A stretch of 32,530 nucleotides of DNA. Origin: Halioglobus sp. (GTDB lineage Bacteria; Pseudomonadota; Gammaproteobacteria; Pseudomonadales; Halieaceae). A model generated the notes under the pieces. It was not told the origin of the DNA and did not search any database. It was given only the letters and a program-made list of their open reading frames with translations. Of this stretch, positions 3,563-31,414 are shown piece by piece (position 1 is the first letter of the stretch; each line of letters starts with the position of its first letter). A program made the translations under genes and the position numbers. The stretch spans positions 1 through 32,530 of the forward strand of contig JAGRIE010000011.1 in assembly GCA_020443425.1 (NCBI GenBank), written 5' to 3'.

Positions 3563-3871
3563 GTTGCACCCACTGCGGAGAGCGTGCGGGGCGGCTTGCC
3601 GCACCCGAGAAAAGCGTCATAACAGTGCGCCACCGCGCCCCAAAATTTTCCTCACGCACTAATCTGGCACAAACGCAGTGAAAACTAGCGGGTTTTTGCC
3701 TTAAAACACGTCTCCAGAAGTCGGCACGCTATTTGCTCCTTGCATACTGTAAACCGTCATCCTGCTCCACGTTGCGCAGGATGGTCGGCCGACAGGATGC
3801 AACAGAGGCGCGCCCGACATGCTTATCACTGTTTTCAGTCTCCACACCGTTACGCCGCGAGTCGTGGCCGG
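3563..3871. other. Regulatory intergenic region before the ectoine-type operon
   Basis: It holds a GTGCGG-N9-CCGCAC dyad (3584-3604) and a sigma-54-type promoter (3722-3737). The region 3740-3871 is an untranslated leader if translation starts at GTG 3872. The dyad could be an enhancer site about 150 bases upstream of the predicted transcription start, or a stem-loop ending the previous gene; it has no T-tract. In-frame codons between 3740 and 3871 are rich in Arg and His and look non-coding. Confidence 0.5.
3722..3737 (+). promoter_or_regulatory. Sigma-54 (RpoN) -24/-12 promoter of the ectoine-type operon
   Basis: The sequence CGGCACGCTATTTGCT matches the RpoN consensus TGGCACG-N4-TTGCW with one mismatch (first base C for T). 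The invariant GG (3723-3724) and GC (3735-3736) are exactly 10 bases apart. It implies transcription from about 3747, which would exclude the longest possible start (TTG 3740) of the next gene. Such promoters need an enhancer-binding activator; none is encoded in the window. Confidence 0.65.
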
Positions 3872-5101: not shown

Positions 5102-5102
5102 T

Positions 5103-6356
5103 ATGAACTGGTTTGAATCCTACGAATCCGATATCCGCGCTTACAGCCGTGTCTATCCGGCGGTATTCGAGAAAGGCGACAACGCGCGCCAGACGGATGA
5201 AGAGGGCAAGGAGTATATCGACTTCTACGCCGGCGCCGGCGTCCTCAACTTCGGCCACAACAACCCCCGACTGATCGAGGCGGTGATCAGCTACCTGCAG
5301 AGCGGCGGTGTGCTGCACACACTCGATATGATGACGCCGCCCAAGCGCGAGTTCATCAAGGCGTTTGTGCAGACAATCCTCGAACCCCGGGGCATGGACT
5401 ACAAGCTGCAGTTCATGGGGCCCACCGGCACCAATGCGGTGGAGGCGGCCCTGAAACTGGCCCGGCGTGTCACCGGCCGCAGCGAGGTGGTCGCGTTCAG
5501 CCAGGGCTTTCACGGTATGACGCTCGGCGCCCTCGCCTGCACCGCCAATGAGTACTTCCGCAACGCGGCGGGAACACCGCTGGGCATGGTCACACACTGG
5601 CCGTTTGAAACGCATGACGGCGGCGGCATCGACAGCCTGCACACCCTGCGCGCCCTGTACCAGAACAGCTCCAGCGGTGTCGAGAAGCCCGCGGCCTTCA
5701 TCGTCGAGGTACTGCAGGCGGAGGGCGGCGTGAACCTCGCCAGCAAAGCGTGGCTGCAAGCCCTACAACAGCTGGCGCACGACATCGGCGCACTGCTGAT
5801 TGTGGATGACATCCAGTCCGGTTGCGGCCGCACCGGCAGCTATTTCAGCTTCGAGGACTGCGGTATCGATCCGGACATCATCACACTGGCCAAGGGCATC
5901 GGCGGTATCGGCACGCCGATGGCGATGAACCTGGTCAAGCCCGAGCACGACAAGCACTGGCAGCCGGGTGAACACACCGGCACCTTTCGCGGCCAGAACC
6001 TCTCCTTTGTCGCGGGCCGCGAAGCGCTGCGCTATTTCGAGGACGACGCATTGATGGCGGACACGCGGCGCAAGGGACAGATCATGGCGGACTTCCTCGC
6101 GGGCATTGCCGCGCAGTACAGCGATGAAGGCTTCAGCGTCAGGGGCAAGGGCATGATGCAGGCGCTGGACGTCGGCAGCGGCGACCTCGCCAAGGCGATT
6201 GCCAACGACTGCTTCGAGAACGGCATGCTGTTCGGCCCCTGTGGCGTCGGCGGCGCCGTGATGAAGCTGATACCACCACTGACCATTCCCGATGATGACC
6301 TGCACCAGGGGCTCGCCATTCTCGGCGCCGCTGTGAAACGCCAACTGGAGGCCTGA
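5103..6356 (+). CDS. doeD: Diaminobutyrate transaminase, EctB-like, catabolic type (DoeD-like)
   Basis: A 417-residue class III PLP aminotransferase that closely resembles EctB. It has FESYESDIRAYSRVYPAVF, FYAGAGVLNFGHNNP, GPTGTNAVEAALKLARRVTG, FHGMTLGALA and HTGTFRGQNL. The PLP lysine is K264 in TLAKGIGGIG, and DDIQSGCGRTG (about 235-245) holds the PLP-ring aspartate D236. EctB makes diaminobutyrate from aspartate semialdehyde; in ectoine catabolism the same chemistry runs backwards (DoeD). I call it catabolic because no ectA or ectC is nearby, while hydrolase, deacetylase and dehydrogenase genes are. ATG 5103 has GGGAG at a good distance and gives the family length, whereas the frame open from 5040 overlaps the upstream gene. 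Spacing to doeA is 3 bases. Confidence 0.85.
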   Translation: MNWFESYESDIRAYSRVYPAVFEKGDNARQTDEEGKEYIDFYAGAGVLNFGHNNPRLIEAVISYLQSGGVLHTLDMMTPPKREFIKAFVQTILEPRGMDYKLQFMGPTGTNAVEAALKLARRVTGRSEVVAFSQGFHGMTLGALACTANEYFRNAAGTPLGMVTHWPFETHDGGGIDSLHTLRALYQNSSSGVEKPAAFIVEVLQAEGGVNLASKAWLQALQQLAHDIGALLIVDDIQSGCGRTGSYFSFEDCGIDPDIITLAKGIGGIGTPMAMNLVKPEHDKHWQPGEHTGTFRGQNLSFVAGREALRYFEDDALMADTRRKGQIMADFLAGIAAQYSDEGFSVRGKGMMQALDVGSGDLAKAIANDCFENGMLFGPCGVGGAVMKLIPPLTIPDDDLHQGLAILGAAVKRQLEA

Positions 6357-6359
6357 GCC

Positions 6360-7613
6360 ATGCTTGAACGCGACGATATGACATTCCCTTTCACCGAGTA
6401 CCAGCGCCGTATCGGCGACCTGCGCAAACGCATGCAGGAGCGCCTGCTGGACGCGGTGATCATCTCGGATGCCGAGAACATCATGTACCTGACGGATTAC
6501 CAGACCACAGGCTACAGTTTTTTCCAGGCGCTGGTGGTGCCGCTGGAGGGCGAGCCGTGGATGGTGACGCGCAAACTGGAGGAATCCAATGTCATCGCCA
6601 GGACCTGGGTCAGTGTCACCCGCCCCTACCCCGATACCGGCGACGCGATACAGATGCTGGTGACCTCGCTGGTGGAGTTCGGGCTGGCCGGCAAGACCAT
6701 CGGCTACGAGAGAAACTCCTACTACTTCACCGCCTACCACCAGGATTTCTTCCACACCTCCTTCACCAAGAGCCGCCTGATGGACTGCTTCGGCATTGTC
6801 GAGGAGGGCCGCATCATCAAATCCGCGGTGGAGCTGGACGTGATGAAAAAGGCCGCCGTCGCCACCAAAGCCGGCATGCAGGCGGGGATCGAGGCAGCCA
6901 GGCCCGGCGTCACTGAGAACGAGATCGGCGCGGCCATCTGCCACGCCATGTTCTCCGCCGGCGGCGAGACACCCGCGGTGATGCCCTACGTCACCTCCGG
7001 CCCGCGCAGCATGATCGGGCACGCCACCTGGGAGGGCAGGACGGTACAGCCCGGCGAACATGTATTTCTGGAGATCGCCGGCTGTTTCCGGCGCTACCAC
7101 ACGGCGATGATGCGCACCGTGGTCTGCGGTGAACTCTCCGACAGCATGTACAAATCGCAGGAGCTGATGAAGCAGGCACTGGATACCGCGCGCAAGGAGT
7201 TCCGGCCGGGGTTGACGGTGTCGGATGCGGACAAGCTGATGCGCAATATCATCCGCGAGAACGATGTCGATGCGCGCCTGATCACCCGCTCCGGTTACTC
7301 CATCGGCATCGCCTTCCCGCCGGCCTGGGACGAGGGTTACATCCTGAGCCTGTTCCAGGGCAGCTCGGAGATCCTGCGGCCCGGTATGACCTTCCATGTG
7401 ATCCCGTGGATGTGGGGTATCGACGGCGACAAGTCCTGCGGCATATCGGACACCTTCTACATCACCGAGGACAGCTGCGGCTCCTTCTTTGACGATGTAC
7501 AGCAGGACTTCACGGTCAAGCCCGATACCCGCGACAGCAAGGACAGTGGCGGCGCCAAGCCGGTGCTGGTGAAAGCGAACCAGAAAACCGCCGCAACAAG
7601 CCAGAAGGCGTAG
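6360..7613 (+). CDS. doeA: Ectoine hydrolase, M24 (creatinase-like) family
   Basis: A 417-residue pita-bread-fold protein proposed to open the ectoine ring, giving N-acetyl-diaminobutyrate. It has the two-domain creatinase/prolidase layout: N-terminal domain to about residue 150, catalytic domain from about 155. The five metal ligands of true M24 peptidases are all replaced: D by E238 (FLEIAG), D by A249 (HTAMMRT), H by Y313 (GYSIGI), E by I348 (FHVIPW) and E by S363 (ISDT). That argues against a metallopeptidase and fits creatinase/EutD-type hydrolases. His221 (IGHATWEG) may serve catalysis. GGAGG lies 8 bases before the ATG. The last 35 residues are a Lys/Ser/Ala-rich tail that looks disordered. 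Its EctB-like and deacetylase neighbours support the assignment. The main alternative is another creatinase-like amidinohydrolase. Confidence 0.82.
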   Translation: MLERDDMTFPFTEYQRRIGDLRKRMQERLLDAVIISDAENIMYLTDYQTTGYSFFQALVVPLEGEPWMVTRKLEESNVIARTWVSVTRPYPDTGDAIQMLVTSLVEFGLAGKTIGYERNSYYFTAYHQDFFHTSFTKSRLMDCFGIVEEGRIIKSAVELDVMKKAAVATKAGMQAGIEAARPGVTENEIGAAICHAMFSAGGETPAVMPYVTSGPRSMIGHATWEGRTVQPGEHVFLEIAGCFRRYHTAMMRTVVCGELSDSMYKSQELMKQALDTARKEFRPGLTVSDADKLMRNIIRENDVDARLITRSGYSIGIAFPPAWDEGYILSLFQGSSEILRPGMTFHVIPWMWGIDGDKSCGISDTFYITEDSCGSFFDDVQQDFTVKPDTRDSKDSGGAKPVLVKANQKTAATSQKA

Positions 7614-7623
7614 GGAGCCCGCT

Positions 7624-8994
7624 ATGTTTATCGCCACCAACCCGACCACGGGCGAGCCGTTGCACGCCCACCCGCTGCATACGGAGGCCGAGGTCGACGC
7701 CATGGTCAACGCGTCACTCGCGGCCTTCAGGCAGTGGCGCAAGACAGGCTTTGCCGAGCGCGCCGCGCTGCTCACCGCCGTCGCACAGCGGATGCGCGAC
7801 GACGAGGAGCGGCTGGCGCGCCTGATGACAGTGGAGATGGGCAAACCCATTGTCGAGGCCCGCGCCGAGGTGCAGAAAGCGGCGTCCTGCGCCCTGCACT
7901 ACGCCGCCCACGCCGAGGCGTATCTCGCCGCGCAGACCCTGCCCTCCGATGCCAGCCACAGCTATGTGCAGCACCTGCCGCTGGGCGCAATACTCGGCGT
8001 GCTGCCGTGGAACGCGCCGTTCTGGCTGGCGTTTCGCTACTGCGCACCGGCGCTGATGGCGGGCAACACCTGCCTGATGAAGCACGACCCGCACGTCCCC
8101 GCCTGTGCCGAGGCCATCGCGGAGTTGTTCATCGCTGCGGGCGCGCCGCCCGGTCTACTGCAGAACCTGCGGCTGGACAACGGGCAGGTCGCGCAATTGA
8201 TTGACAACGATGCCGTACAGGCGGTGTCACTCACCGGCTCCAGCGCGGCCGGCAGTGCGGTGGCGTCGCTGGCCGCCGCCGCCATCAAACCCGCCGTGCT
8301 GGAGCTGGGCGGTTCCGACCCCTGCCTGGTGCTCGCCGATGCCGATCTCGACGCCGCCGCGCAGGTGCTGGCGGTGTCCCGTATTATCAACGCCGGGCAA
8401 TCCTGTATCGCCGCCAAGCGGATTATTGTCGAGGCGCCGGTGTATGAACGCTTCGTCGACAAATTCCGGCAGCGACTGGCGACACTGCAGATGGGTGACC
8501 CGGCCGAGGAGACCACCCAGGTCGGCCCGATTGCGCGCAGCGACCTGCGCGACAACCTGCACCGCCAGGTCAGCATGACCATTGCCGAGGGCGCCGACTG
8601 CCTGCTGGGCGGGGAGTTGCCCGACGGGCCGGGCTATTTCTACCCGGTGACATTGCTGACCGGGGTCAGCCCCGGTATGACAGCGTACTGCGAAGAGACC
8701 TTCGGCCCGGTGGCGGTGGTGATCAAGGCCGACTCGGTGGAGCACGCCATGACAATGGCCAACGATACCCCCTACGGCCTGGCGGCATCCATCTGGTCGG
8801 CCGATACCGCGCGCGCTGTCGCCATGAGCGCCGACATAGAGGCGGGCCAGGTCGCCATCAACGGCATCGTCAAGACCGACCCGCGCCTGCCCAGTGGCGG
8901 CGTTAAACGCTCCGGCTATGGGCGCGAGCTGGGCCCGCATGGCATTCTCGGCTTCGTCAATGTGCAGCAGGTCTGGGTGGGACCTGCGCAATAG
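7624..8994 (+). CDS. doeC: NAD(P)-dependent aldehyde dehydrogenase, probable aspartate-semialdehyde dehydrogenase (DoeC-like)
   Basis: A 456-residue aldehyde dehydrogenase, the predicted last step that oxidises aspartate semialdehyde to aspartate. Canonical features are present: oxyanion-hole Asn130 (LPWN), the nucleotide-binding turn GSSAAG (205-210), general base Glu227 (LELGG), nucleophile Cys261 (NAGQSC), and the C-terminal EETFGPVA and KRSGYGRELG motifs. It is close to succinate-semialdehyde dehydrogenases; the substrate is taken from the operon context. It starts 10 bases after doeA behind GGGAG, clearly in the same transcript. It is the last gene of the unit. No transporter and no AsnC- or GntR-type regulator usual for ectoine loci is in the window. 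Confidence 0.8.
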   Translation: MFIATNPTTGEPLHAHPLHTEAEVDAMVNASLAAFRQWRKTGFAERAALLTAVAQRMRDDEERLARLMTVEMGKPIVEARAEVQKAASCALHYAAHAEAYLAAQTLPSDASHSYVQHLPLGAILGVLPWNAPFWLAFRYCAPALMAGNTCLMKHDPHVPACAEAIAELFIAAGAPPGLLQNLRLDNGQVAQLIDNDAVQAVSLTGSSAAGSAVASLAAAAIKPAVLELGGSDPCLVLADADLDAAAQVLAVSRIINAGQSCIAAKRIIVEAPVYERFVDKFRQRLATLQMGDPAEETTQVGPIARSDLRDNLHRQVSMTIAEGADCLLGGELPDGPGYFYPVTLLTGVSPGMTAYCEETFGPVAVVIKADSVEHAMTMANDTPYGLAASIWSADTARAVAMSADIEAGQVAINGIVKTDPRLPSGGVKRSGYGRELGPHGILGFVNVQQVWVGPAQ

Positions 8995-19753: not shown

Positions 19754-19798
19754 GCACCGGCAGCGGTGCCGCGGGTGGTGCCCGCAGCGCCTAGGCGC
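19754..19798. other. Cluster of stem-loops in a convergent intergenic gap
   Basis: GCACCG/CGGTGC (19754-19769), GCGGG/CCCGC (19771-19785) and the palindrome GCGCCTAGGCGC (19787-19798, covering the carotenoid oxygenase stop) follow one another between two convergent genes. They may act as a bidirectional transcription barrier; there is no T-tract. Confidence 0.35.
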
Positions 19799-21221
19799 CG
19801 GGACGCCAGCCGCCGTGAAAACCTGCCGGCACCCGGTGCGACAGGTGCACTTTGGCGACAGGCCCCTCGGCGACCTTGAGCGCGTTGAAAATATACAGGC
19901 TGCTGGTGCGGGTCTCGAAGCTGGTGACGACGGAGAGCAGGTAGCCCTCACCCTCGGCGGCATCCTGCGAGGCCGGGACAAAGATCGCCTCGGAGGTGAT
20001 CGCCTGGCCGCAGGAGTACCTGTCAGCGGTGCCGGTCTCATGATCGAAGTGCCCTACCACATTGTAGATTTTGTCTTCTTTACCGTAGGCATTGCTCAGC
20101 TGGCCATCGGGGGAGGTGTACCAGCCGTGGCGGTAGGGCCGACCCGCGTAGCGCGGATCACACTGCGGGAACTCGGACTCAAAGTCGTCGACCCGGGTGA
20201 ACACCGCGCGCGGTTCGGCGGCGTTCATATCGATCGTCCAGCGACTCAGGTGCGGCGTGGAGCGAGGTGTGGACTCACCGCTCGCAGTCGGGAACAGCGG
20301 CGCGGAATCAAACCGGCAGGCATCGATAGAGATCACGCCATCCTTGTCAAATGCATTCATAAAATGGAATGCGAAGCTCACATCCATCTCGACCCAGCGC
20401 ACATCCTCGGTTTTGCCGCCGTGCCGCGGCAGCACCCCGAGAAACACCCCCTTGTCGGGCTCCCATGCAAATGGGGGGCCGCCTTCCATAGCCCGTTCGA
20501 GGCTGCCGGTGATCGGCATAATCGGAATCACAATGTAGTTCTCGGTGATCACAAAATCGTGAACCATGGAGGAATACGGCGTGGGGACAAGCGTGCTCTC
20601 TGTCAGTATCCCTTCGGGGTTGACCTTGTGCACCATCACATCGGCTGAAAATGGCCCCGTGGCCATATAGGCGAAGAACACCATCTCGCCCGTGACGGGG
20701 TCGATCTTGGGATGGGCAGTCATCGCGGTGTTGAGCTTGCCGCGAAAATTCCAGCTGCCGATCGACTCCAGCGTCACCGGGTCCAGCTCGAAAGGCGGAT
20801 GCCCCTCCTCCATCACCAGCAGGCGCCCGCCGTGCCAGACGACAGCCGTGTTGGCGGTACCGTCCTTGTCGGTGAAAACGAAATCCGTGTACTCGGGATC
20901 ACACTCAAACGGGTTCATCGGGTTGACCAGTGCGCGCCCCTCGCGATCCTCATGCTTCCACTTGTTGGTGCGCACCCAGCGATTGTTATAGTCGACGCGG
21001 CCGTCCTTGATATGGAAGGCGTGCACCATGCCGTCGCCCATGAACAGGTGGTAGTCGCCGCGCGGCTTGAAGCGCTGGTTGGGCCCGGCGCGGTACAGCG
21101 TGCCGCACAGGTCAGCGGGAACTTCCCCTTCCACGATCAGGTCCCGGGCCTCACATTCCATCTGGATCGAGCCAAAAGGGAAGTTCAGGAAAGGGTTGGT
21201 TGCAGACATCGGCTCGGCCAT
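19791..21221 (-). CDS. Carotenoid cleavage oxygenase (RPE65/CCD/lignostilbene dioxygenase family)
   Basis: A 476-residue non-heme iron dioxygenase. The four iron-binding histidines are visible: H170 (TAHPKID), H221 (MVHDFVITE), H286 (AFHFMNAF) and H469 (GFHGGW at the C-terminus). Family hallmarks GTLYRAGPNQRF, FMGDGMVHAFHI and TANTAVVWHGGRLLVMEEG are also present. The seven-bladed propeller core is full length, with no signal peptide. The family cleaves a C=C bond in carotenoids, apocarotenoids or stilbenoids such as lignostilbene, and I cannot decide between them. The ATG at 21221 has a GAGG ribosome site. It is divergent from a TonB-dependent receptor gene with a 187-base shared control region, which ties it to that operon. 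Confidence 0.93.
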   Translation of the reverse strand: MAEPMSATNPFLNFPFGSIQMECEARDLIVEGEVPADLCGTLYRAGPNQRFKPRGDYHLFMGDGMVHAFHIKDGRVDYNNRWVRTNKWKHEDREGRALVNPMNPFECDPEYTDFVFTDKDGTANTAVVWHGGRLLVMEEGHPPFELDPVTLESIGSWNFRGKLNTAMTAHPKIDPVTGEMVFFAYMATGPFSADVMVHKVNPEGILTESTLVPTPYSSMVHDFVITENYIVIPIMPITGSLERAMEGGPPFAWEPDKGVFLGVLPRHGGKTEDVRWVEMDVSFAFHFMNAFDKDGVISIDACRFDSAPLFPTASGESTPRSTPHLSRWTIDMNAAEPRAVFTRVDDFESEFPQCDPRYAGRPYRHGWYTSPDGQLSNAYGKEDKIYNVVGHFDHETGTADRYSCGQAITSEAIFVPASQDAAEGEGYLLSVVTSFETRTSSLYIFNALKVAEGPVAKVHLSHRVPAGFHGGWRPGA

Positions 21222-21345: not shown

Positions 21346-21408
21346 GACAGGCGCACCGCACTGACACCGGCGCCACGCAATAATCATAAGTTTTTACGGG
21401 TGACATTC

Positions 21409-23874
21409 ATGACCTTTCGCCGTTTTGGATTGAGTTTATTCGTGCTGGCGCCCATGGTGGCCGCAGTGGCCTCCGCCCAGGAGGCGAAAACCGCCGCCAC
21501 CGGCCCGGACCCGCTGGCGCTGGAGGAAGTCGTGGTCACCGCCAATCGCCGGGTGGAAAGTATCCAGGAAGTCCCGATGTCCGTCACCGCGTTCACCGGC
21601 CAGTTCTTCAAGGATTCAGGCGTTACCAACCTCGCGGGGCTGGACCAGTACACTCCCAGCCTGAAAATCACCCAGGGTACTGACTCCAACAGCCAGTCCA
21701 TACGCATCCGCGGTATCGGTTCGGTGGGTACCAACGCCGGCATCGACCCCAGTGTGGGCCTGTTCATTGACGGTGTCTACCAGGGCCGTGCTGGCATGAG
21801 CATTGGCGACCTGATGGACATACAGCGGGTGGAAATCCTGCGCGGACCACAGGGCACGCTGTACGGCAAGAATACCGCCGCGGGGGCGATCAGCATCATC
21901 ACCAAGCCGCCCTCCGCTGAAGGCATGGAGTCCGAGGTCGAGTTGATGTACAACTCCGACAAGCGCGCGGAAGTGCACGCCATGGTGAATGTCCCGTTCG
22001 GTGAGAGCGGCCACGCCATGCGATTGACGGGCTACGGCATCGACGGCGACCACCTGTACAAGAACGAGTTCAATGGCGACCATGTGAACAATGCCAACAA
22101 ATGGGGGGTGAAATCGCGCGTACTGCTCGACACCGGCGCCAAGGCAGAGGGCGATGGGTTCGGGGAGTTCCTGTTCACCTTCGACTACAACAAGGAAGAC
22201 ACGGACTGCTGCGCGCTCGCGGTGATCGACTACGAGGGCTTTTCCACCCTGGGCGTCCCCGCCACCAACACGCCCTCTGCGGCCTACCAGCAGCAGCTTG
22301 GCCTCAATGACAAGGGCCAGCAGATCTTCCAGTACACCTCGTTCGAGGATACCGAGGGCTTTTCGCCACCGGCCAACTCCAACCCCTTCGATGACGATTA
22401 CTGGTTTGACGCACCGCTGTACAACGAGGTCGAGGTCGGCGGCGTAGCGCTGGAGTGGAACAAGGACCTGTCCAACGAAAATGTGCTGACCTTTATCAAC
22501 GCCTGGCGCCACTTCAAGTCAGACAGCGGGTACGACGGGGATTTCACCGCCTACAATGCCGTCCATGGCTCGCAGAAGTACAACTTCAACCAGTACTCCT
22601 CGGAGCTGCGCATCACCTCACCCGGCGGTGAGACACTGGACTACCAGGGCGGACTCTACGCATTCTATTCCGACCTGGATTCCACGGGCCAATTTGCACA
22701 GTCCGCGACGCTCACCAGCATCACACCGGCACTGGGGCCGCTGTTCCCGAACGGCACGCTCAACACCGACAACAACAATTACAAGACCACCAGCTTCGCT
22801 GCGTTCGGACAGTTGATCTGGAATATCACCGACCAGTTCAGCGCCACCTTCGGGCTGCGCTATACCTACGAGCAGAAAGACTTCAACGGCTCGCAGATCT
22901 CGGACCCGAAAACCACCTTCACGGTACCCCCTATTGTCGGCCCGGACGTGTACTACGATGAAACGCGCAGCGATGACGATTTCTCCCCGACCATTATCGG
23001 TCGCTACTTCTTCACTCCCGACATCATGACGTACGCCAGTATCAGTCGCGGCTTCAAATCGGGGGGATTCAACCAGCGTCGCGAGCTGGAAGGCAACAAC
23101 GGCGAGTTCGATCCGGAAAAGGCCACCAATTATGAACTGGGCTGGAAGACGTCAACCGACGATCGACGCCTGCAGTTCAACGGCACGTTTTACCTGGTGA
23201 ACTACGACGATTTCCAGGCGCAGTCGTTTGACGGCTCCACATTCACCGTCACCAATGCCGGTTCCATGCAGAGCTACGGCTCGGAACTGGACCTCGTATT
23301 CGTCCCGATGGCCGATGTCGTGGTGGGCACAGCTGTCGGCTACAACAAGGCCGAGTACAAGGATTTCGACAATGCCCAGTGCACCGTTGAGCAGGCGGTG
23401 ACCGAGTATTACCAGCGGCCCGGCGGACCGGCCTTCATTCCCAATCCCAGTGATCCCACCAACCCGCAGGCGGCCCAGAGCCTGCCCCCCGGCGTCGCGG
23501 CCGTCTGTGTCCAGGACCTGGAGGGCAAGCCGATAGACAACGCACCGGAGTGGACGGTCAGCTCCTATGTCCAGTACAACCGCGACCTCGCCGACAACCT
23601 GGTGGGTACCGTGCGACTGGAGCACAGCTACACTGACAGCTACTACCTGGACCAGGATCTCGACCCGACCCTTAAAAACGATGCGGTGGACCTGATCAAC
23701 CTGCGTTTTACGCTGAGCAATATGGAGAACTCCTGGGAGGTCGCGCTGTGGGGTCGCAACCTGCTGGATGAGGAGTACTATAATTTCGGTATCGATATCC
23801 CGGTCATCGGTGGGTATGTTGGCGCGGTTGCGCCCGGTGCCATCTATGGGGTGACGCTGCGTTTTATCAACTAG
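21409..23874 (+). CDS. TonB-dependent outer-membrane receptor
   Basis: An 821-residue outer-membrane transporter driven by TonB-ExbBD. It has a Sec signal peptide (MTFRRFGLSLFVLAPMVAAV, then ASAQ), a TonB-box-like LEEVVVTANRR, and a plug domain from about residue 50 to 170 with SIQEVPMSVTAFTG, RIRGIGSVGTN, VGLFIDGVYQGR and VEILRGPQGTLYGKNTAAGA. A 22-strand-type barrel follows, ending LRFIN. The plug sequence is of the kind common in sphingomonad and marine gammaproteobacterial receptors for hydrophobic or plant-derived compounds rather than a clear siderophore receptor. ATG 21409 has GGG eight bases upstream; GTG 21400 would add three residues. It heads a run of four genes with gaps of 28, 17 and 15 bases. 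Confidence 0.93.
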   Translation: MTFRRFGLSLFVLAPMVAAVASAQEAKTAATGPDPLALEEVVVTANRRVESIQEVPMSVTAFTGQFFKDSGVTNLAGLDQYTPSLKITQGTDSNSQSIRIRGIGSVGTNAGIDPSVGLFIDGVYQGRAGMSIGDLMDIQRVEILRGPQGTLYGKNTAAGAISIITKPPSAEGMESEVELMYNSDKRAEVHAMVNVPFGESGHAMRLTGYGIDGDHLYKNEFNGDHVNNANKWGVKSRVLLDTGAKAEGDGFGEFLFTFDYNKEDTDCCALAVIDYEGFSTLGVPATNTPSAAYQQQLGLNDKGQQIFQYTSFEDTEGFSPPANSNPFDDDYWFDAPLYNEVEVGGVALEWNKDLSNENVLTFINAWRHFKSDSGYDGDFTAYNAVHGSQKYNFNQYSSELRITSPGGETLDYQGGLYAFYSDLDSTGQFAQSATLTSITPALGPLFPNGTLNTDNNNYKTTSFAAFGQLIWNITDQFSATFGLRYTYEQKDFNGSQISDPKTTFTVPPIVGPDVYYDETRSDDDFSPTIIGRYFFTPDIMTYASISRGFKSGGFNQRRELEGNNGEFDPEKATNYELGWKTSTDDRRLQFNGTFYLVNYDDFQAQSFDGSTFTVTNAGSMQSYGSELDLVFVPMADVVVGTAVGYNKAEYKDFDNAQCTVEQAVTEYYQRPGGPAFIPNPSDPTNPQAAQSLPPGVAAVCVQDLEGKPIDNAPEWTVSSYVQYNRDLADNLVGTVRLEHSYTDSYYLDQDLDPTLKNDAVDLINLRFTLSNMENSWEVALWGRNLLDEEYYNFGIDIPVIGGYVGAVAPGAIYGVTLRFIN

Positions 23875-23902: not shown

Positions 23903-24709
23903 ATGACAGAAGAGACGATAATCTCGACAGATCAGCGCACCGGTCGTGTGGCAGCCCCGCAGAAGAAGGGTTTCTACTACAACTGGGGCCCGCAAGCCTG
24001 GATCGATATGTGGATGTCGAACGCGATGCTGGTTAAAAAAGCCATGCCCATCATCAGCCATACCTTCGTGCCCATCCTGCGCTTGTCCGGCGACAAGGAA
24101 CAGGTTGACCGCGACTACGCCGAGATCAAATCGCGGCGCGAGGTGATCGCGCTGCTGGATTCACCGCGCGAAAAATGGCGCAAACGCTACGGCAATTTCG
24201 TGCGAGAAGCTGAGTGGGCACTGCTGGAACTGCGCAAATATTACAGCCAGAAACAGTACGAGGATATCGTCATCGGCACTTCCGTTGCCCTCTCCCACGA
24301 AAACTCGCCTGAATTCCTCAAAATGATGAACAGCATGTCGGAGAAGAACAAAAACAAGAAAGCCAAACCGACATCGGACGGCTCCCCCTCGAAACCCGGG
24401 CGCTGGGCCACCTTCATGTTTGAAACCTTCAACCCCGCGCACTGGCTCACCGGGCCGGCCACCATCACCGAGTACGATCCCGCCAACGGCCTTACCGTGA
24501 TGGAGATTCCCGACTGCGGCTGGCATACCTGCGGGCCCCGCGAGCGGCTGCCCAATCCCGATGCACTGCCCGAGGAAGGCTGTCTCAATATCTGCAAGGG
24601 GCCGTTTGAAGCGCTGTTCAACGGCGCCGGCGGCGGCCTGAAAATGGAGTTCGACCCGCACCTGCCGGAGACGTCCTGCACCGTCAGGATGAGCTGGCAG
24701 CCGCAATAG
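23903..24709 (+). CDS. Conserved protein with Cys-rich D27/DUF4033-like C-terminal domain (putative)
   Basis: A 268-residue protein I cannot assign firmly. Residues 20-140 are helical and aromatic-rich (KKGFYYNWGPQAWIDMWMSN). Residues 145-165 form a charged, probably disordered linker. The C-terminus, about 180-265, shows WLTGPATITEYD, then cysteines C205 and C210, EGCLNICKGPFEALF with C227 and C231, and SCTVRMSW with C259. From memory, plant D27 beta-carotene isomerases carry WLVGPCEV, then CVGMCxNxCKxPxQxF, then a methionine-proline segment and SCEM in the same order (PF13225). The match is by eye. An ATC hydrolase-like fold (PF14196) is the main alternative. It starts with GAGGAGG upstream, 28 bases after the receptor gene and beside a carotenoid oxygenase, which makes the D27 reading more attractive. 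Confidence 0.55.
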   Translation: MTEETIISTDQRTGRVAAPQKKGFYYNWGPQAWIDMWMSNAMLVKKAMPIISHTFVPILRLSGDKEQVDRDYAEIKSRREVIALLDSPREKWRKRYGNFVREAEWALLELRKYYSQKQYEDIVIGTSVALSHENSPEFLKMMNSMSEKNKNKKAKPTSDGSPSKPGRWATFMFETFNPAHWLTGPATITEYDPANGLTVMEIPDCGWHTCGPRERLPNPDALPEEGCLNICKGPFEALFNGAGGGLKMEFDPHLPETSCTVRMSWQPQ

Positions 24710-24726: not shown

Positions 24727-24978
24727 GTGGGAAAAATATCCGACATCCTGTACGCACAGAAACGCCTGTGGCAGCAGCGGCGTGAAATTGCACAGCTGCA
24801 CAAGGAATTGCAAACGCTGCGGGCACAGAACAACAGCATGCGCGAAGGGATGCGCCGCTGTGTGACCTGCGAGTACCGCATTGATTACAAACGGCGCCAG
24901 GGTGAACCCGCCCGGTCAGCGCCAACAGCAACGGCGGCAGCAGACGCAACCGACACCGACAACAACACACCTGCATAA
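24727..24978 (+). CDS. Small coiled-coil protein with CxxC
   Basis: An 83-residue protein, not recognised. Residues about 8-40 (LYAQKRLWQQRREIAQLHKE, then LQTLRAQNN) have heptad spacing of Leu/Ile and look like a coiled coil. CVTCEYRIDYKRR follows, with a CxxC that could bind a metal or form a disulfide. The tail is Ala/Thr/Asp-rich and probably disordered. It starts with GTG at 24727 and has no clear ribosome site. It fills the gap between two co-directional genes almost exactly (17 and 15 bases), has codon usage like its neighbours, and ends just before the next gene's ribosome site, so I think it is real. It may be an assembly or scaffold partner of the preceding protein. Confidence 0.55.
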   Translation: MGKISDILYAQKRLWQQRREIAQLHKELQTLRAQNNSMREGMRRCVTCEYRIDYKRRQGEPARSAPTATAAADATDTDNNTPA

Positions 24979-24993
24979 CAGAAGAGGCCCATT

Positions 24994-25860
24994 ATGTCCG
25001 TAATCCTAGTCACCGGCAGCAGCACTGGCATCGGCCAGGAAACCGCCCTGCACATGGCGCGCAAGGGCCACGACGTCTACGCCGCCGTGCGCAGCCCCGA
25101 CACCGCCACCGAACTGAAAGAGAAGATCGCGGCCGAGAACCTGCCGGTCACCGTGATCCGCCTCGACCTCGTGGACCCCGCCTCGGTGACGTCGGCCGTG
25201 GCCGACATCATGCAGCGCAGCGGTCGCATAGACGCACTGGTCAACAACGCCGGGATCGGCGGCGGTCGCGCGGTGGAAGAGACGCCACTGGAGGAAGCGC
25301 GAGAAATTTTCGAGACCAACTACTTCGGCAACGTCAGCGTACTGCGTGAGGTGACACCCATCATGCGCAAACAGAAATCGGGCCGTATTGTCACTGTCGG
25401 CTCGCTGGCGGGACGTGTGGTGATGGGCTGCCATGCGCACTACTCCGCCTCCAAGTGGGCGATGGAAGGCCTCAGCGAGGCGCTGGCACAGGAGATGGCC
25501 GAGTTCAATGTGAAGGTGTCCATCATCGAACCGGGCTGTGTGCTGACCCCGATCTGGGGCAAGGGCTCACTGCCGACAGAACCCTCCCCCTACCAGAATT
25601 CACTGCAGCGGCTGGGGCGCTTTTTTGAATTCGGCCTGCGCCGCCCGGCGATGCCGACCGATGTGGCCGGCGCTATCGAGCACGCGATCGAGTCAGACAA
25701 GCCGCACTTCCGCTACCCGGTCGGGCCGGATGCCGACGAAACCATCGCCGCCAGGGCGAAAGTCTCGGACGATGAATGGATGGAAGCCAACTGCCTGCAG
25801 GGTGACGCATTCTACGATCGCTGGAAGGCGCTGGTGGGCGTGGATTACTACCGCGATTAG
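24994..25860 (+). CDS. Short-chain dehydrogenase/reductase (classical SDR)
   Basis: A 288-residue NAD(P)-dependent oxidoreductase. It shows the cofactor motif TGSSTGIG (7-14), NNAG (84-87), catalytic Ser137, and Tyr150 and Lys154 in YSASK. VRSPDT after the second strand has an Arg where NADP-preferring SDRs often carry one. Length and the C-terminal extension resemble retinol dehydrogenase- and 17-beta-HSD-like SDRs, but these are broad families. It begins with an AGAAGAGG ribosome site, 15 bases after the small coiled-coil gene, and is the last gene of the receptor operon. In that context it could reduce or oxidise the aldehyde or alcohol formed by the divergent carotenoid oxygenase; this is inference. 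Confidence 0.9.
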   Translation: MSVILVTGSSTGIGQETALHMARKGHDVYAAVRSPDTATELKEKIAAENLPVTVIRLDLVDPASVTSAVADIMQRSGRIDALVNNAGIGGGRAVEETPLEEAREIFETNYFGNVSVLREVTPIMRKQKSGRIVTVGSLAGRVVMGCHAHYSASKWAMEGLSEALAQEMAEFNVKVSIIEPGCVLTPIWGKGSLPTEPSPYQNSLQRLGRFFEFGLRRPAMPTDVAGAIEHAIESDKPHFRYPVGPDADETIAARAKVSDDEWMEANCLQGDAFYDRWKALVGVDYYRD

Positions 25861-26017
25861 CCGCGACTTGCCGGGCAACGGGATGGCGGGCACCTGATCC
25901 GGCATTCCGCAGCAGGCCCCGGGGCATAAAGGGTCGTGCACCTTGCCAGCCATGAGAGGTGAAAACACGGGCGCAACCCGATAACATGATCGCTCACCGC
26001 TCACGGACGATAATAAC

Positions 26018-26023
26018 TATAAT
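26018..26023 (+). promoter_or_regulatory. TATAAT -10-like hexamer upstream of the propeller lipoprotein gene
   Basis: A perfect TATAAT lies 16 bases before the chosen ATG, without a recognisable -35. If it is the real -10, the 5' leader would be only about ten bases and translation would be nearly leaderless. Confidence 0.25.
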
Positions 26024-26039
26024 GCGCAAAGGACTGGCT

Positions 26040-29000
26040 ATGCCCACTGTTACCCATCCCCTCTCGATGACCACGCTGTACCGGATCGCAGGACAGCTGG
26101 TGCGACCGCTTGTGGTTGGTCTTGCGCTGACTGTCGTTGCCTGTAGCAGCGGCAGCAGTAGCAGTGGATCAACGACTGCCCCGCCTGAGCCGGCACCCCC
26201 CGCGCAGATAGCCGTGTCCGGCATGGCCGTGAAAGGGCCGCTGGCATTCGCTGATGTTGCTGTCTATACCGTTGACACTGCGGTACAGGATTGGCGTGGA
26301 GAGCGCGTCGCCACCGGCACCACAGACGAGTTCGCCAATTTTACCGGGGTGATGCTGGAACAACCCGTGGCAGGCCACTATATCGTCGACGTCACCGCCA
26401 ACAACGGCACGCTGGACCTGAATACCGGCACCGCGCCAGTGATGCAGCGATTGAGCCTGTTGGCCAGCGGTGCTGACATACGGCAGGGCCACCGGCTGTA
26501 CGCCACATCGCTGACTACCCTGGCGTGTTCCCTGGCGGCACTGACCGGTGTCGCCGATGCTAGCGCAGACGCAGCCTATGCCGATGCCCTGCAGCGCGTG
26601 GCGGATGTGCTGGGGTTTGGTCTGCTCTCCGCCCCCGACGCCTTCACCGCGGCCCCGGTTTACCCGGGTGAGGCGGTAGCGGATGCCCGTGAACGTCTGG
26701 CGCACCGAATGGCCATCGAGGCAGTCAGCACCATCGTTTACCGCTTACAGGCGCAGACCGGTTTCGATGCGGACCGGGTGATCGAGGCACTGGCACAGGA
26801 TATGGCCGATGGCACACTCGACGGCCTGGACAAACAGGGCGCAGCGGTGGTCGGTTTTCTGGCCATCGACAATGTAAGCCACTGGTTCGAGAGCCTGCCG
26901 GTCGCGCATCTGCCGATACCGAATACGCAGCGCGATGGCCAACGCTTCCCGAGTGACCCGTACACCATTGCTGACGTCCATCAACTGATGGTATGGGAAC
27001 GGGCGGCACTGGGTATTGACCTGCCCACCCCGCTGCCGGTTCCAGCCGCGCTCAAACCCGTCCCGATCGGGTTTGACCTCGACCGGGATGGCTGGCCCGA
27101 CCGCTCGGATTTCGATGATGACGGCGATGGCATTCTGGATGTGTTTGATGATTTCACCAATCTGGCATCGATACAGGCAACAGCCGCCGACACGGTATTC
27201 GACAAACAGAGGCGCCATCTCTACCTGAGTGCCAAAGACGACAGGAAGGTGTATGCGTTTGACGTGACAAGTGGCGAACTGGTGAGTGAGTGGCAGTTTG
27301 CGTACATGCCGGAACACATGTACCTGCAAGCCTCGCGCAATGAACTCTATATCGCCCTGTTGGCCCGGGAGCACAGTTCATACTGGTGGGACGACGAGCA
27401 ATACGGCTATATCGCCGTCATTGACCTGGCCACCGGGGAGCTTGCCCGCACATTGGAAATCCGCATCGATCCCTACGACCTGGTGGTCACTGCGGCCGGC
27501 AAGCTGGTGGTGTCCAGCGGTTCCGGCCAGTGGGCTGATATTCTCGCTGTCGACGCCGCCAGCGGGGCCGAGTTGGGCGCCGCGAGAATCAGGCAGCAAT
27601 CGCGGTTGGCGCTGCATCCCAATGAGCGCTGGGTGTACACCGCGGGAACTGAATCTTCACTCGGTGATATCGGGAAGTTTGACCTCAGCGGCGATGGCAT
27701 CACTGCGCTGTACAACTCACTTTCCCAAGGTGTGCACAGAGTGTCGGGAGGCTTGACGATCTCTGAAGACGGCGCATACCTGGTGACCCACGGTGGCGAT
27801 GTGTTCCAGCTTTCATCACAGCGCAGCGAGGATATGCTGCACGTGACAAGCCTGACTGCAGGCGCGGTAGCGGCAGCGCATTTTGATGCAGAAAACAACC
27901 TGCTGTTCACAGTGGAGACAGACATTCACAGTACCACGTTCATCCGCCACTACAACGCTTCGTCGCTGCTGCTCATCGGCGAGCGCATCACCTCCGCTGC
28001 GGTGAGCGCGCTGTATGGCTACTATGATGAACTGTTGATTGTGCAGGACAACAACGGCAACGGCGTTGAGATCGGCCGCACAGATCACCCCTGCCCGGAC
28101 TGCGGCAACAACACGGCGCCGATAGCCTATTTCACCGTGAACCCGGCCACTGGTGGTGATACGACAACGACCTACACCTTCGATGCCTCTGCCAGCACCG
28201 ATGCCGAAAGCGCACTCCGGTTCCGCTGGGATTGGGAGTCCGACGGCAGCTACGATACCGAGCTGAGTGCAGAGCCCGCCATCAGCCGTGATTTTGACCT
28301 GGCAGGATCGAAATACATCACCCTGCAGGCAGTCGACACGGCAGGGCTTTATACGACCTACCGCCTGCAACTGGATGTCGCCCAGGGTTTCGACGACGAG
28401 TTCGCCTTTGAACTGCCGTTCGAGGTCACCGCAGCGGAGTACGATGAAGGTCGCGGCAAGCTCTACGCCACGGACCGGCAGAACCGACGCCTGTATATCG
28501 TGGACTTGGCCAGCGGACTGGTGGAAACGCACTTTGAATTCGCCCATATGCCAGAGCGCATGGCGGTCACACCGGATGGCAGGCGGCTGTATGTGGCCCT
28601 GGCGACGCGGGATCACAGTGCCTACTGGTGGGAGGAGGACCAGAATGGCTTCATCGCGGTATTCGATCTGGAAAAATGTGAGAAGTTAAGCGAGTTCGAG
28701 ATCGCTATCGATCCCTATGATTTGGTGGCCACCGATGCAGGCAAATTGGTTGTCACCAGCGGATCGGGGCAATGGACTTACATCATCGCCTATGATGTCG
28801 CCAGCCAAAGCGAACTCGGGAAGGCGAGGACGTACGATGGCTCTGTGCTGAGCTTACATCCGAACCAGCAGTGGGTTTATGCCGCGAACCGGGGGCTGAC
28901 GCCCTCTGACATTGAGAAGTTTGATATCAGTGGCGAGGGTATCGTTGAGCTCTACGACTCGCCCTATCACGGTGATCATCGGATGTCGGGAGGGGTATGG

Positions 29001-30578
29001 GTGACTCCGGATGGCGACCGGCTGATCACGCGCGGCGGTGATGTCTTCGCCGCTACCGGCGATGTCGCTACCGATATGACGTACCTGCAGGGATTGTCCG
29101 CAGGCATCGTCAACGGGCTGCATTTCGATATCACCACAAACCTGGTTTTCACGCTGGAGAAAAGTGTCGGTATCGCTGTCCTGAACTACTACAATCTCAG
29201 CACTATGGAGTTTGTCGACCAGGTGGAGTTGGACAGCGATCCGGCGTTCACATTCACCACCGGTGATTCGGTGTTCACGCTGGCCAGCGGCAACAGTTCA
29301 ACACTTGTCTATTTTGTCCCGCACCCCTGCATCGAGTGTGGCCTGAACACAGCGCCGATCGCGGCGTTCAGCGTAAACCCCGACGTCCAGGTATCGACAC
29401 AGGATGATATTACTTTTTCTGCCGCGGCCAGCTCTGACGCGGAAAGTGAATTGCTGTATCGCTGGGACTGGGACGCTGACGGTGTCTACGATACGCCCTA
29501 TTCTGACCAGTATACGGTCATTAAAAACTACCCGCTGGGTGGCACCAAAACCGTTTTCCTGCAGGTCAAGGACACCGGCGGCCTGACGCACCGCGTATCG
29601 CAGACCTTCGATGTGTCCTTTGTCAGCGATGCCAACCAACCCGCGACGGGCGGCGCCGCACTCGAGTTGCAGTTCCGCCCTGATGCACTGGTGTACGATC
29701 ACAGCCACGGCCGCATCCTCGCCACTGACGCCAACAGCCGCAGGCTGTATGCCGTGGACGCTGGCACGGGAATAATCCAGCGGCGTTTCGAGTTTGACGC
29801 CACGCCAGCCAGAATGACGATCACACCGGATGGCAATACGCTGTATCTGGCACTGGAGGCACATCCGCAGGACTGTTGTCGCGATGATGACCAGCAGCGC
29901 GGGTACATCGTCGAGATTGATCTGGCTTCGATGACAAGGACAAACCAATTTGAAGTGTCGATTGACCCCTACGACCTGGTGGTGACATCCGACGGCAAAC
30001 TGGTGATTTCCAGCGCATCAGGACAGTGGACAACGATGCGCGCCTACGACGTCAGCGACGGTTCCCTGCTGGGTTCCGTGCCGATACGCCACCGGTCCAA
30101 CATTGCATTGAGCGCCGATGAACGTTCAGTGTTTGCAGTCGATACCGATACCTCTTCATCAGACATCGAGAAATTCGATATCAGTGGTCGCGGCATCGTA
30201 AAACAGCGGGCCGGCGGCTCCGGCGTTGACAGCAAGGTATGGTCCTCCCCTGATGGCGAGTACCTGGTGTCAAGTGGCGGCGATGTCTTCAGCAGCAGTA
30301 CCGATGCACAGAGCGACTTCCTGCTGCAGGCCGAATTGACCGAGGCCCGGATCAGGGCGGTAGCGTTTGACGTTGACCAGAACCTGTTGCTGACAATCGA
30401 GGTCTCTGGCAATTATTTTTCCCCGGACTACCACCTCCGCTACTACGATGCCGGCACGTTCGCGCGGGTCGATGAACAACCGTTAACCGCGGGCGACCTG
30501 CTCTACCTCCACAACGGCGACGCCCACGCCGTCAGCTACAGCGACCACAGCGCAACCATCGCTATCTTCACCAAATAG
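26040..30578 (+). CDS. Giant lipoprotein with three beta-propeller modules and two PKD domains
   Basis: A 1512-residue predicted lipoprotein: basic N-terminus, hydrophobic core, lipobox VVAC with Cys35, then a Ser-rich linker. Residues about 48-140 look like a carboxypeptidase-regulatory/Ig-like domain (MAVKGPLAFADVAVYTVD), followed by a mainly helical stretch. About 343-372 is an Asp-rich thrombospondin type 3-like calcium motif (DLDRDGWPDRSDFDDDGDG). Three homologous YVTN-like propeller modules follow (about 370-685, 787-1097, 1205-1512), each with IDPYDLV.T..GKLV and SGQW. PKD domains lie between them (about 690-782 and 1102-1193). It is probably a surface adhesin or binding protein. ATG 26040 has AAAGGA six bases upstream; the longest frame begins at 25959. 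Its stop codon lies in a repeat that belongs to the next element. Confidence 0.85.
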   Translation: MPTVTHPLSMTTLYRIAGQLVRPLVVGLALTVVACSSGSSSSGSTTAPPEPAPPAQIAVSGMAVKGPLAFADVAVYTVDTAVQDWRGERVATGTTDEFANFTGVMLEQPVAGHYIVDVTANNGTLDLNTGTAPVMQRLSLLASGADIRQGHRLYATSLTTLACSLAALTGVADASADAAYADALQRVADVLGFGLLSAPDAFTAAPVYPGEAVADARERLAHRMAIEAVSTIVYRLQAQTGFDADRVIEALAQDMADGTLDGLDKQGAAVVGFLAIDNVSHWFESLPVAHLPIPNTQRDGQRFPSDPYTIADVHQLMVWERAALGIDLPTPLPVPAALKPVPIGFDLDRDGWPDRSDFDDDGDGILDVFDDFTNLASIQATAADTVFDKQRRHLYLSAKDDRKVYAFDVTSGELVSEWQFAYMPEHMYLQASRNELYIALLAREHSSYWWDDEQYGYIAVIDLATGELARTLEIRIDPYDLVVTAAGKLVVSSGSGQWADILAVDAASGAELGAARIRQQSRLALHPNERWVYTAGTESSLGDIGKFDLSGDGITALYNSLSQGVHRVSGGLTISEDGAYLVTHGGDVFQLSSQRSEDMLHVTSLTAGAVAAAHFDAENNLLFTVETDIHSTTFIRHYNASSLLLIGERITSAAVSALYGYYDELLIVQDNNGNGVEIGRTDHPCPDCGNNTAPIAYFTVNPATGGDTTTTYTFDASASTDAESALRFRWDWESDGSYDTELSAEPAISRDFDLAGSKYITLQAVDTAGLYTTYRLQLDVAQGFDDEFAFELPFEVTAAEYDEGRGKLYATDRQNRRLYIVDLASGLVETHFEFAHMPERMAVTPDGRRLYVALATRDHSAYWWEEDQNGFIAVFDLEKCEKLSEFEIAIDPYDLVATDAGKLVVTSGSGQWTYIIAYDVASQSELGKARTYDGSVLSLHPNQQWVYAANRGLTPSDIEKFDISGEGIVELYDSPYHGDHRMSGGVWVTPDGDRLITRGGDVFAATGDVATDMTYLQGLSAGIVNGLHFDITTNLVFTLEKSVGIAVLNYYNLSTMEFVDQVELDSDPAFTFTTGDSVFTLASGNSSTLVYFVPHPCIECGLNTAPIAAFSVNPDVQVSTQDDITFSAAASSDAESELLYRWDWDADGVYDTPYSDQYTVIKNYPLGGTKTVFLQVKDTGGLTHRVSQTFDVSFVSDANQPATGGAALELQFRPDALVYDHSHGRILATDANSRRLYAVDAGTGIIQRRFEFDATPARMTITPDGNTLYLALEAHPQDCCRDDDQQRGYIVEIDLASMTRTNQFEVSIDPYDLVVTSDGKLVISSASGQWTTMRAYDVSDGSLLGSVPIRHRSNIALSADERSVFAVDTDTSSSDIEKFDISGRGIVKQRAGGSGVDSKVWSSPDGEYLVSSGGDVFSSSTDAQSDFLLQAELTEARIRAVAFDVDQNLLLTIEVSGNYFSPDYHLRYYDAGTFARVDEQPLTAGDLLYLHNGDAHAVSYSDHSATIAIFTK

Positions 30579-30619: not shown

Positions 30620-30706
30620 TTCACCAACTGCCCACATCTGATATCGACTTCAACTCACCCGCCGGGCAGTATGCTCCGGGTGTCGATCACAGCGGCGTAT
30701 TCCACC

Positions 30707-31414
30707 ATGCCACGACGAGCGAGGATGTATCAGCCGGGCCTGCCCTACCATGTGTTCCAGCGAGGAAACAATCGCAGCGCCTGCTTTTTCGACACGGATG
30801 ATCGCCAGTACTACCTGAGTTTATTAGCGCAGACCTCCCATCTATACGGCGTGGATCTGCATGCCTATGTGCTGATGACAAATCACGTTCACCTGCTCTT
30901 GACGCCACATTGCACAGACAGCATCTCGCGGATGACTCGCGTTGCAGGCAGCCGGTACGCACAGCGGTTGAACAAAAAATACGGGCGCACAGGTACCCTT
31001 TGGGAGGGCCGGCACAAATCATGCCCCGTGGATACAGAAACCTATTTACTGAAGTGCTACATTTACATTGAGCTGAACCCGGTGCGGGCCAGGATGGTCT
31101 CCAGCCCGCACGAATACCCCTGGTCGAGTTACGCTGCCAACGCGCTGGGTGCACACAGTAGCTTGCTGTCACCGCACACGGTGTACCGTTGCCTGGGACA
31201 GTCGGCGGAGGAACGCTGCCGTGCGTATCGCGGCTTTGTTCATCAGACGTTTGATGATCGAGATGTGCAGGCTATAAGAACCGCAACGCATTACTGCTAT
31301 CCGCTGGGGAGCGAGCGTTTCTGTGAGCGACTGCAAGCTGAACTCGGCGTCTCTGTTGGGCAGCAGGGTAGAGGGCGGCCGCGGAAACGGGCGGGGACGG
31401 TGAGTAAAAAATAA
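30707..31414 (+). CDS. REP-associated tyrosine transposase (Y1_Tnp / IS200-like, RAYT)
   Basis: A 235-residue HUH single-strand transposase of PF01797. It starts MPRRARMYQPGLPYHVFQRG and continues NNRSACFF, the standard RAYT N-terminus. The HUH motif is H60-V-H62 (MTNHVHLLLTP). The catalytic tyrosine is most likely Y120 in YIYIELNPVRARMV. The C-terminal 100 residues are the longer tail of this subfamily, ending in a basic RGRPRKR segment. ATG 30707 gives this canonical N-terminus; the open frame from 30671 would add 12 unrelated residues. RAYTs are usually single-copy, immobile-looking genes linked to spread of REP repeats. Here it lies between repeats whose cores are in inverted orientation, as expected. 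The frame is intact. Confidence 0.93.
   Translation: MPRRARMYQPGLPYHVFQRGNNRSACFFDTDDRQYYLSLLAQTSHLYGVDLHAYVLMTNHVHLLLTPHCTDSISRMTRVAGSRYAQRLNKKYGRTGTLWEGRHKSCPVDTETYLLKCYIYIELNPVRARMVSSPHEYPWSSYAANALGAHSSLLSPHTVYRCLGQSAEERCRAYRGFVHQTFDDRDVQAIRTATHYCYPLGSERFCERLQAELGVSVGQQGRGRPRKRAGTVSKK

Follow-up and report, generated by a model that had tools for sequence, protein, structure and literature searches.

The locus described here raises the question of whether bacteria outside the cyanobacteria possess a relative of D27, and whether that relative acts together with a carotenoid/stilbene cleavage oxygenase family protein (CCD) encoded beside it. In plants, D27 starts strigolactone hormone synthesis and is associated with CCDs at the level of the pathway, whereas the CCD considered here is a physical neighbour of the protein in question, which is termed P0001. 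The window, that is, the whole stretch of 32,530 nucleotides that was analysed, contains the following row of genes:

19791..21221, minus strand: carotenoid/stilbene cleavage oxygenase family protein (CCD; PF03055), transcribed away from the TonB gene
21400..23874, plus strand: TonB-dependent outer-membrane receptor (PF00593/PF07715), the gene before P0001
23903..24709, plus strand: P0001, 268 aa, putative remote relative of D27, no Pfam or NCBIfam model above cut-off
24443..24703, plus strand: C-terminal domain of P0001 (residues ~181-267), comparable to PF13225, with C205, C227, C231 and C259 in common with plant D27
24727..24978, plus strand: 83-aa coiled-coil protein with GMRRCVTCEYR, downstream of P0001, no Pfam or NCBIfam model over cut-off
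24994..25860, plus strand: short-chain dehydrogenase/reductase (SDR; PF00106), next in the row

The genes of the plus strand are closely spaced around P0001, with 28 bp between the stop of the TonB gene and the start of P0001, and with the 83-residue frame beginning at a GTG 17 bp past the P0001 stop. The initial annotation of this DNA had read the motifs WLTGP and NICKGPFEALF, two pairs of cysteines and a final SC259 from P0001, and all of these are present at the positions given there within the 268-residue frame (W181-LTGP, C205, C210, C227, C231, NICKGPFEALF at 229-239 and S258-C259). Its description of the row as divergent from a CCD-family gene is borne out as well: the CCD lies on the minus strand, with the TonB gene between, and scores 435 bits against PF03055 (cut-off 27).

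Several other features of the window lie outside this row. An ectoine degradation cluster occupies positions 3740-8994 and comprises DoeB2 (625 bits, over cut-off), a diaminobutyrate transaminase over the cut-off of NF006733, the ectoine hydrolase DoeA_2 (754 bits, over cut-off) and an aldehyde dehydrogenase. After the SDR gene, positions 25959-30578 encode a protein of 1539 residues that matches a PKD domain and, weakly and below cut-off, a beta-propeller. Positions 30671-31414 hold an IS200-like Y1 transposase (PF01797), which resembles the REP-associated kind.

A scan of genome contigs with P0001 as the query identified 41 loci with relatives of the protein. The records are mostly labelled Halieaceae, Halioglobus, Haliea or Gammaproteobacteria, and the more distant members of the family come from records labelled Myxococcota, Deltaproteobacteria and Candidatus Binatia. 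Carriers account for 32 of the 140 genomes of the host's own family and for 16 of the 18 same-genus genomes listed, the host's own included. An alignment of P0001 with relatives from 27 of the 41 loci (A1, 28 sequences) has C205, W207, H208, C210, C227, C231, K232, H253 and C259 as invariant residues, so that the motif pattern of P0001 is more than chance. Used as a profile against 369 genomes of the class, A1 gave the host's own genome as the sole credible match; a matching stretch in another genome (G057) contains six internal stop codons and was dismissed as a chance hit. Samples of the phyla of L033 and L025 yielded matches in 1 of 118 and 3 of 140 genomes, respectively, all of them already-known carriers, which indicates that the family is rare in those two phyla.

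Two loci, L026 and L040, have a divergent paralogue of P0001 (about 33% identical) adjacent to the main gene in a back-to-back arrangement, at L026:5054-5794 and L040:5020-5766 (minus); further paralogues (L054, L057) were found elsewhere in two other carrier genomes. In the four paralogues compared, C205, H208, C227, C231, K232 and C259 are retained, position 210 is Ala in every case and position 253 is Asp in one. Together with A1 they form a set of 32 family sequences, 31 of which have H253. At L065, one neighbour is an FAD-dependent amine-oxidase-type protein (PF01593).

The gene that follows P0001 also recurs. A small protein whose coiled-coil-like stretch ends in MRRCxxCx[YF]R is encoded downstream of the P0001-type gene in 34 of 39 loci, within 480 bp in 33 of them and at about 630 bp in L020, when L030 and L040, which are cut inside the gene, are left out of the count. 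It was not found downstream of the genes in L021, L024 (where about 230 bp are available), L037, L038 and L041. The small protein is kept in loci labelled Myxococcota, Binatia and Deltaproteobacteria, some of which have no CCD, and it is therefore a more constant partner than the CCD. Because its weak matches are TraR/DksA-like, it may be speculated that it provides half of a four-cysteine metal site, which dimerisation would perhaps complete.

Whether P0001 is related to D27 was addressed at two levels of sensitivity. PF13225 is the only Pfam family that P0001 matches, at 15 bits and an E value of 0.025, and in a six-frame search of the host genome P0001 is the top PF13225 match at 17.0 bits, followed 0.2 bits lower by a stretch with an internal stop (16.8 bits). 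Both values are below the Pfam cut-off of 27, and the significant PF13225 match that the initial annotation had named as supporting evidence was thus not obtained. Among the 28 members of A1, 12 match PF13225 (best E 0.0035) and four match the runner-up Flu_NS2 (best E 0.0073), five families being matched at E values up to 10. The cysteine-containing ATC hydrolase family (PF14196), which had been named as a rival assignment, is matched by none of the 28 members at E values up to 10, at a setting of HMMER in which the filters drop most matches above about 0.1. Weak matches to ElaB, VMA22, Flu_NS2, RLL and others that surfaced in searches related to P0001 were rejected, and tblastn searches of plasmids with P0001 and with a reconstructed rice D27 sequence returned nothing.

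The PF13225 search was extended to the genomes of six other loci (E up to 1). The top match was the orthologue in two of them (L025 and L033) and a paralogue, confirmed by the A1 HMM, in two more; of the remaining two carriers, one had an unrelated stretch on top and one had no match. The highest score of these six genomes, 19.2 bits, belongs to the L025 orthologue and covers positions 1-83 of the 88 profile positions. A member of the family or a paralogue is thus the best PF13225 match in five of seven carrier genomes. The same profile also found matches in 4 of 14 unrelated control genomes (E up to 1), a count obtained in two separate searches, and among 299 Pseudomonadota genomes it gave none over the cut-off and partial matches of up to 19.3 bits in six genomes; the A1 profile matched none of six (L044-L049) of the eight loci with such partial matches. 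Since chance scores reach 18-19 bits in unrelated genomes, the PF13225 score alone is no evidence, and it is the best-in-genome rank that counts. The HMM results are suggestive of a relationship between P0001 and D27, and membership of P0001 in PF13225 as curated is not concluded, its score being below the cut-off.

Comparison of profiles with profiles gave a clearer picture. The three plant D27 sequences used are reconstructions and are unverified letter by letter; they score 115, 121 and 131.6 bits against PF13225, which makes them adequate stand-ins. The A1 alignment was aligned by hhalign to one of them, a rice D27, with a probability of 90.9 (E 1.2e-6), and the profile of 32 family sequences was aligned to all three with a score of 66.4, a probability of 96 and an E value of 4e-9, compared with maxima of 24.4 for 100 column shuffles and 22.1 for three unrelated neighbour profiles and a score of 18.1 for the reversed profile. 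Masking the five cysteine columns of P0001 lowered the score to 32.7 and the probability to 26.5; this score still exceeds the shuffles, which reached at most 20.4, and the match to D27 is therefore not due to the cysteines alone. The similarity resides in the C-terminal part, which on its own scored 50.7 against 20.8 for shuffles. The N-terminal half was aligned to D27 with a probability of 0.4, and 13 of 100 shuffles did as well, in agreement with the earlier remark that this half is unlike plant D27; over the N-terminal ~160 residues no similarity to D27 was detected.

The likeness to the D27 and D27-Like carotene isomerases of plants, algae and cyanobacteria thus concerns the C-terminal ~85 residues, with WLxGP, CxxxCK and GL/GM...P...SC. 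In a joint alignment with the three plant sequences, the GP after WL, C205, CxxxCK, P252 and C259 are common to both sides, and C205, C227, C231 and C259 are present in 32 of 32 family sequences as well as in the three plant proteins. The fifth cysteine, C210, is Ala in all four paralogues and lacks an equivalent in plant D27 as represented by these three, which places it outside the shared pattern. Of the D27-like domain proposed in the initial annotation, the remote homology and four aligned cysteines have therefore stood, and the inclusion of C210 has not. Further differences from plant D27 are about ten extra residues before C227 and the family residues H208 and H253, which are additions absent from the plant protein. 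Taken together, the sequence comparisons make it very likely that P0001 is remotely homologous to D27 in its C-terminal domain. Arabidopsis DWARF27 proteins are listed as [Fe4S4] in a passage of PMC6006212, which fits four cysteine ligands and is consistent with the set C205/C227/C231/C259. A metal ion or Fe-S cluster is thus a probable, though putative, constituent of P0001 in view of its four cysteines.

The second part of the question concerns the CCD. A tblastn search with the window CCD found a CCD-family match in the available DNA of 27 of the 41 loci; in 25 of them the identity is at least 45%. The pairing of a D27-like gene with a CCD gene at one bacterial locus, which had been suggested from the window alone, can thus be regarded as a conserved neighbourhood. 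The loci without a CCD match are L005, L016, L017, L019, L023, L025, L026, L028, L029, L030, L031, L033, L035 and L040. The contigs of L016, L017 and L019 stop short of where the CCD commonly lies, and those of L030, L033 and L040 are short on one side; other loci, for instance L005, L025, L026 and L028, have wide flanks and yet no CCD match, so that the link to the CCD is neither universal nor obligatory. The arrangement is variable. In most loci the CCD is divergent, with the TonB gene between; in L036 it is divergent, but that TonB gene has no match there; in L024 the CCD precedes the P0001-type gene on one strand at a distance of 19 bp; and in L032 and L021 the P0001-type gene precedes the CCD on one strand. 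Two tandem CCD genes, with identities of 51-53% and 68-81% to the CCD of the window, stand beside the P0001-type gene in L007, L008, L010, L011, L015 and L027. In the host genome, which measures 4.33 Mb, the search for CCD genes found three. The retention of the CCD through these changes of layout argues for a pathway shared with the P0001 family, and a functional link between P0001 and the neighbouring CCD is very probable.

The observed sequence, remote homology, shared cysteines and conserved neighbourhood can be joined into a scheme, of which we infer the cluster, the substrate, the import, the isomerisation and the order of steps from sequence. The adjacent TonB receptor would take up a hydrophobic conjugated compound, for example, a carotenoid breakdown product, another terpenoid or a similar molecule. 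P0001, carrying an Fe-S cluster on C205, C227, C231 and C259 as in D27, would set or change the geometry of a double bond of this substrate or perform another cluster-dependent rearrangement; the compound would subsequently be cleaved by the CCD, and the SDR would oxidise or reduce the cleavage product. The small MRRCxxCxYR protein would serve as a dedicated partner, perhaps in a metal or redox function. The scheme as a whole is slightly more likely than not. Within it, a role of P0001 as a double-bond isomerase on a polyene is put forward tentatively and is less likely than not. A more far-reaching version, in which a D27-type Fe-S polyene isomerase with its small partner would pass stereochemically set substrate on to the CCD beside it, in bacteria that take up carotenoid-like compounds and either degrade or sense them, is rather unlikely.

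The nature of the substrate is the point at which the main alternative departs from this scheme. P0001 might be an Fe-S protein of the D27 superfamily that does not isomerise carotenoids and that serves the catabolism of a stilbene- or lignan-like, sterol or terpenoid compound, with the CCD acting on the same compound; this possibility deserves to be taken seriously, although it falls somewhat short of an even chance. It is in line with the type of the window CCD, for which the best solved match is lignostilbene dioxygenase-like (322 bits) and which is overall closest to LsdA, NOV1 and LSD4 (about 320 bits), sharing Phe59 with them. The matches of the window CCD to the NCBIfam models LigStilDioxAlpha (419.6 bits, cut-off 800) and carotenoid 13,14-cleaving (299.4 bits, cut-off 675) are both below the respective cut-offs. 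According to a passage of PMC8191317, Tyr-101 and Lys-134 of LSD4 bind the 4-hydroxyl group of the stilbenoid. In contrast to LsdA, NOV1 and LSD4, both residues are absent from all 33 CCDs compared (the one in the window, 30 relatives and those from L032 and L021). Position 101 is occupied by Met, Leu, Ile or Phe. At position 134, 31 of the 33 have Glu, L032 has Trp and L021 has Tyr; Phe59 is kept throughout. The missing Tyr101 and Lys134 speak against phenolic stilbenes and are by themselves no pointer to carotenoids. Glu134 was considered as a mark of carotenoid-type CCDs and ruled out, for the carotenoid-type CCDs compared have Trp, Tyr or Ser there, Ser being the residue in the chains of plant carotenoid 9,10-dioxygenase and VP14; in this respect the window-type CCD is unlike them, as the alternative would have it, and the polyene reading becomes slightly less likely. 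The CCDs of L032 and L021 count against it, since they are of the carotenoid and apocarotenoid type, with a plant carotenoid 9,10-dioxygenase (242 bits) and an apocarotenoid 15,15'-oxygenase (279 bits), respectively, as best solved matches. By these matches, three CCD subtypes appear to be kept beside one P0001 family.

The metabolism of the host, a marine bacterium, bears on both readings. Phytoene synthase was not found in the host genome at E 1e-5, an absence that is no proof in a genome that is 94% complete, and the same search found the enzyme in 7 of 14 control genomes; CrtI-like matches in the host reach 132 bits, below the cut-off of 238. The host thus differs from the usual setting of D27, a non-carotenoid substrate gains in plausibility and endogenous beta-carotene is an unlikely substrate of P0001. 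If the substrate is carotenoid-like, it would have to come from outside the cell, and the TonB receptor, matched in 28 of the 41 loci, is the candidate for its uptake. A close match to the SDR (about 64% identity or more) is present in 20 of the 41 loci; its solved relatives, with a putative dehydrogenase on top and 17beta-HSD1 and DHRS9 among many others, are compatible with the scheme and unspecific. Genes of an SDR, an acyl-CoA dehydrogenase or a 2-hydroxyacid dehydrogenase lie nearby in several Halieaceae loci, as they would in a degradation cluster, and a Rieske ring-hydroxylase is encoded upstream in L021; both observations favour the catabolism of a non-carotenoid compound.

A second alternative would make P0001 a non-enzymatic domain for ligand binding, sensing or transport of a ligand, of the TRAPP/H-NOX/V4R type, with zinc bound to its cysteines. 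Fold searches returned weak resemblances to TRAPP, H-NOX, PoxR (which carries the V4R label) and BcsD, and nothing viral matched at an E value of 0.001 or better; neither P0001 nor the small protein had a significant match in PHROGs. The AF2 model of P0001 has a predicted helix at 224-238 and predicted strands at 187-192, 197-202, 247-252 and 259-264, and this model and that of the L026 paralogue both seem to resemble the TRAPP/H-NOX arrangement weakly, with scores too weak to claim a shared fold. We consider such a role improbable. That P0001 has no homology to D27 at all, and that it belongs to some other metal-binding family whose cysteines are arranged alike by coincidence, is very improbable: sub-threshold PF13225 scores no higher than chance matches elsewhere and the dissimilar N-terminal half would be in keeping with it, but the shuffle and decoy controls, the survival of the match after cysteine masking, the best-in-genome rank in five of seven carriers and the independent conserved linkage to CCDs all stand against it.

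On balance, the explanation favoured here, by a narrow margin, is that P0001 founds a bacterial protein family with a D27-homologous C-terminal domain that works in one pathway with the neighbouring CCD. Passages of PMC11449226 describe CaD27 of Cyanobacterium aponinum as a D27 orthologue with assayed isomerase activity, report that D27 occurs in photosynthetic eukaryotes and, among cyanobacteria, in about 20 of 200, and regard the cyanobacterial type as ancestral to the D27 enzymes of plants. CaD27, as described there, is like P0001 a prokaryotic D27-type protein in an organism without strigolactones; the P0001 family differs from it in belonging to other bacterial lineages and in being only remotely similar to plant D27. 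Among the matches listed from the open-licence PMC literature, no title or opening of an abstract pointed to a bacterial D27-type protein outside the cyanobacteria.

Neither the family nor its small partner is recognized above cut-off by a Pfam or NCBIfam model, so that annotation from those models alone overlooks both. The physical linkage of the P0001 family to three CCD subtypes suggests that the combination of D27-type chemistry with cleavage by a CCD is more widespread. The family also offers a bacterial system in which the D27 enzyme class and its metal centre can be studied. If the polyene isomerase version of the scheme is true, the pairing of D27 with a CCD known from strigolactone synthesis would recur, beyond plastids and cyanobacteria, in bacteria that carry the two genes in physical linkage.
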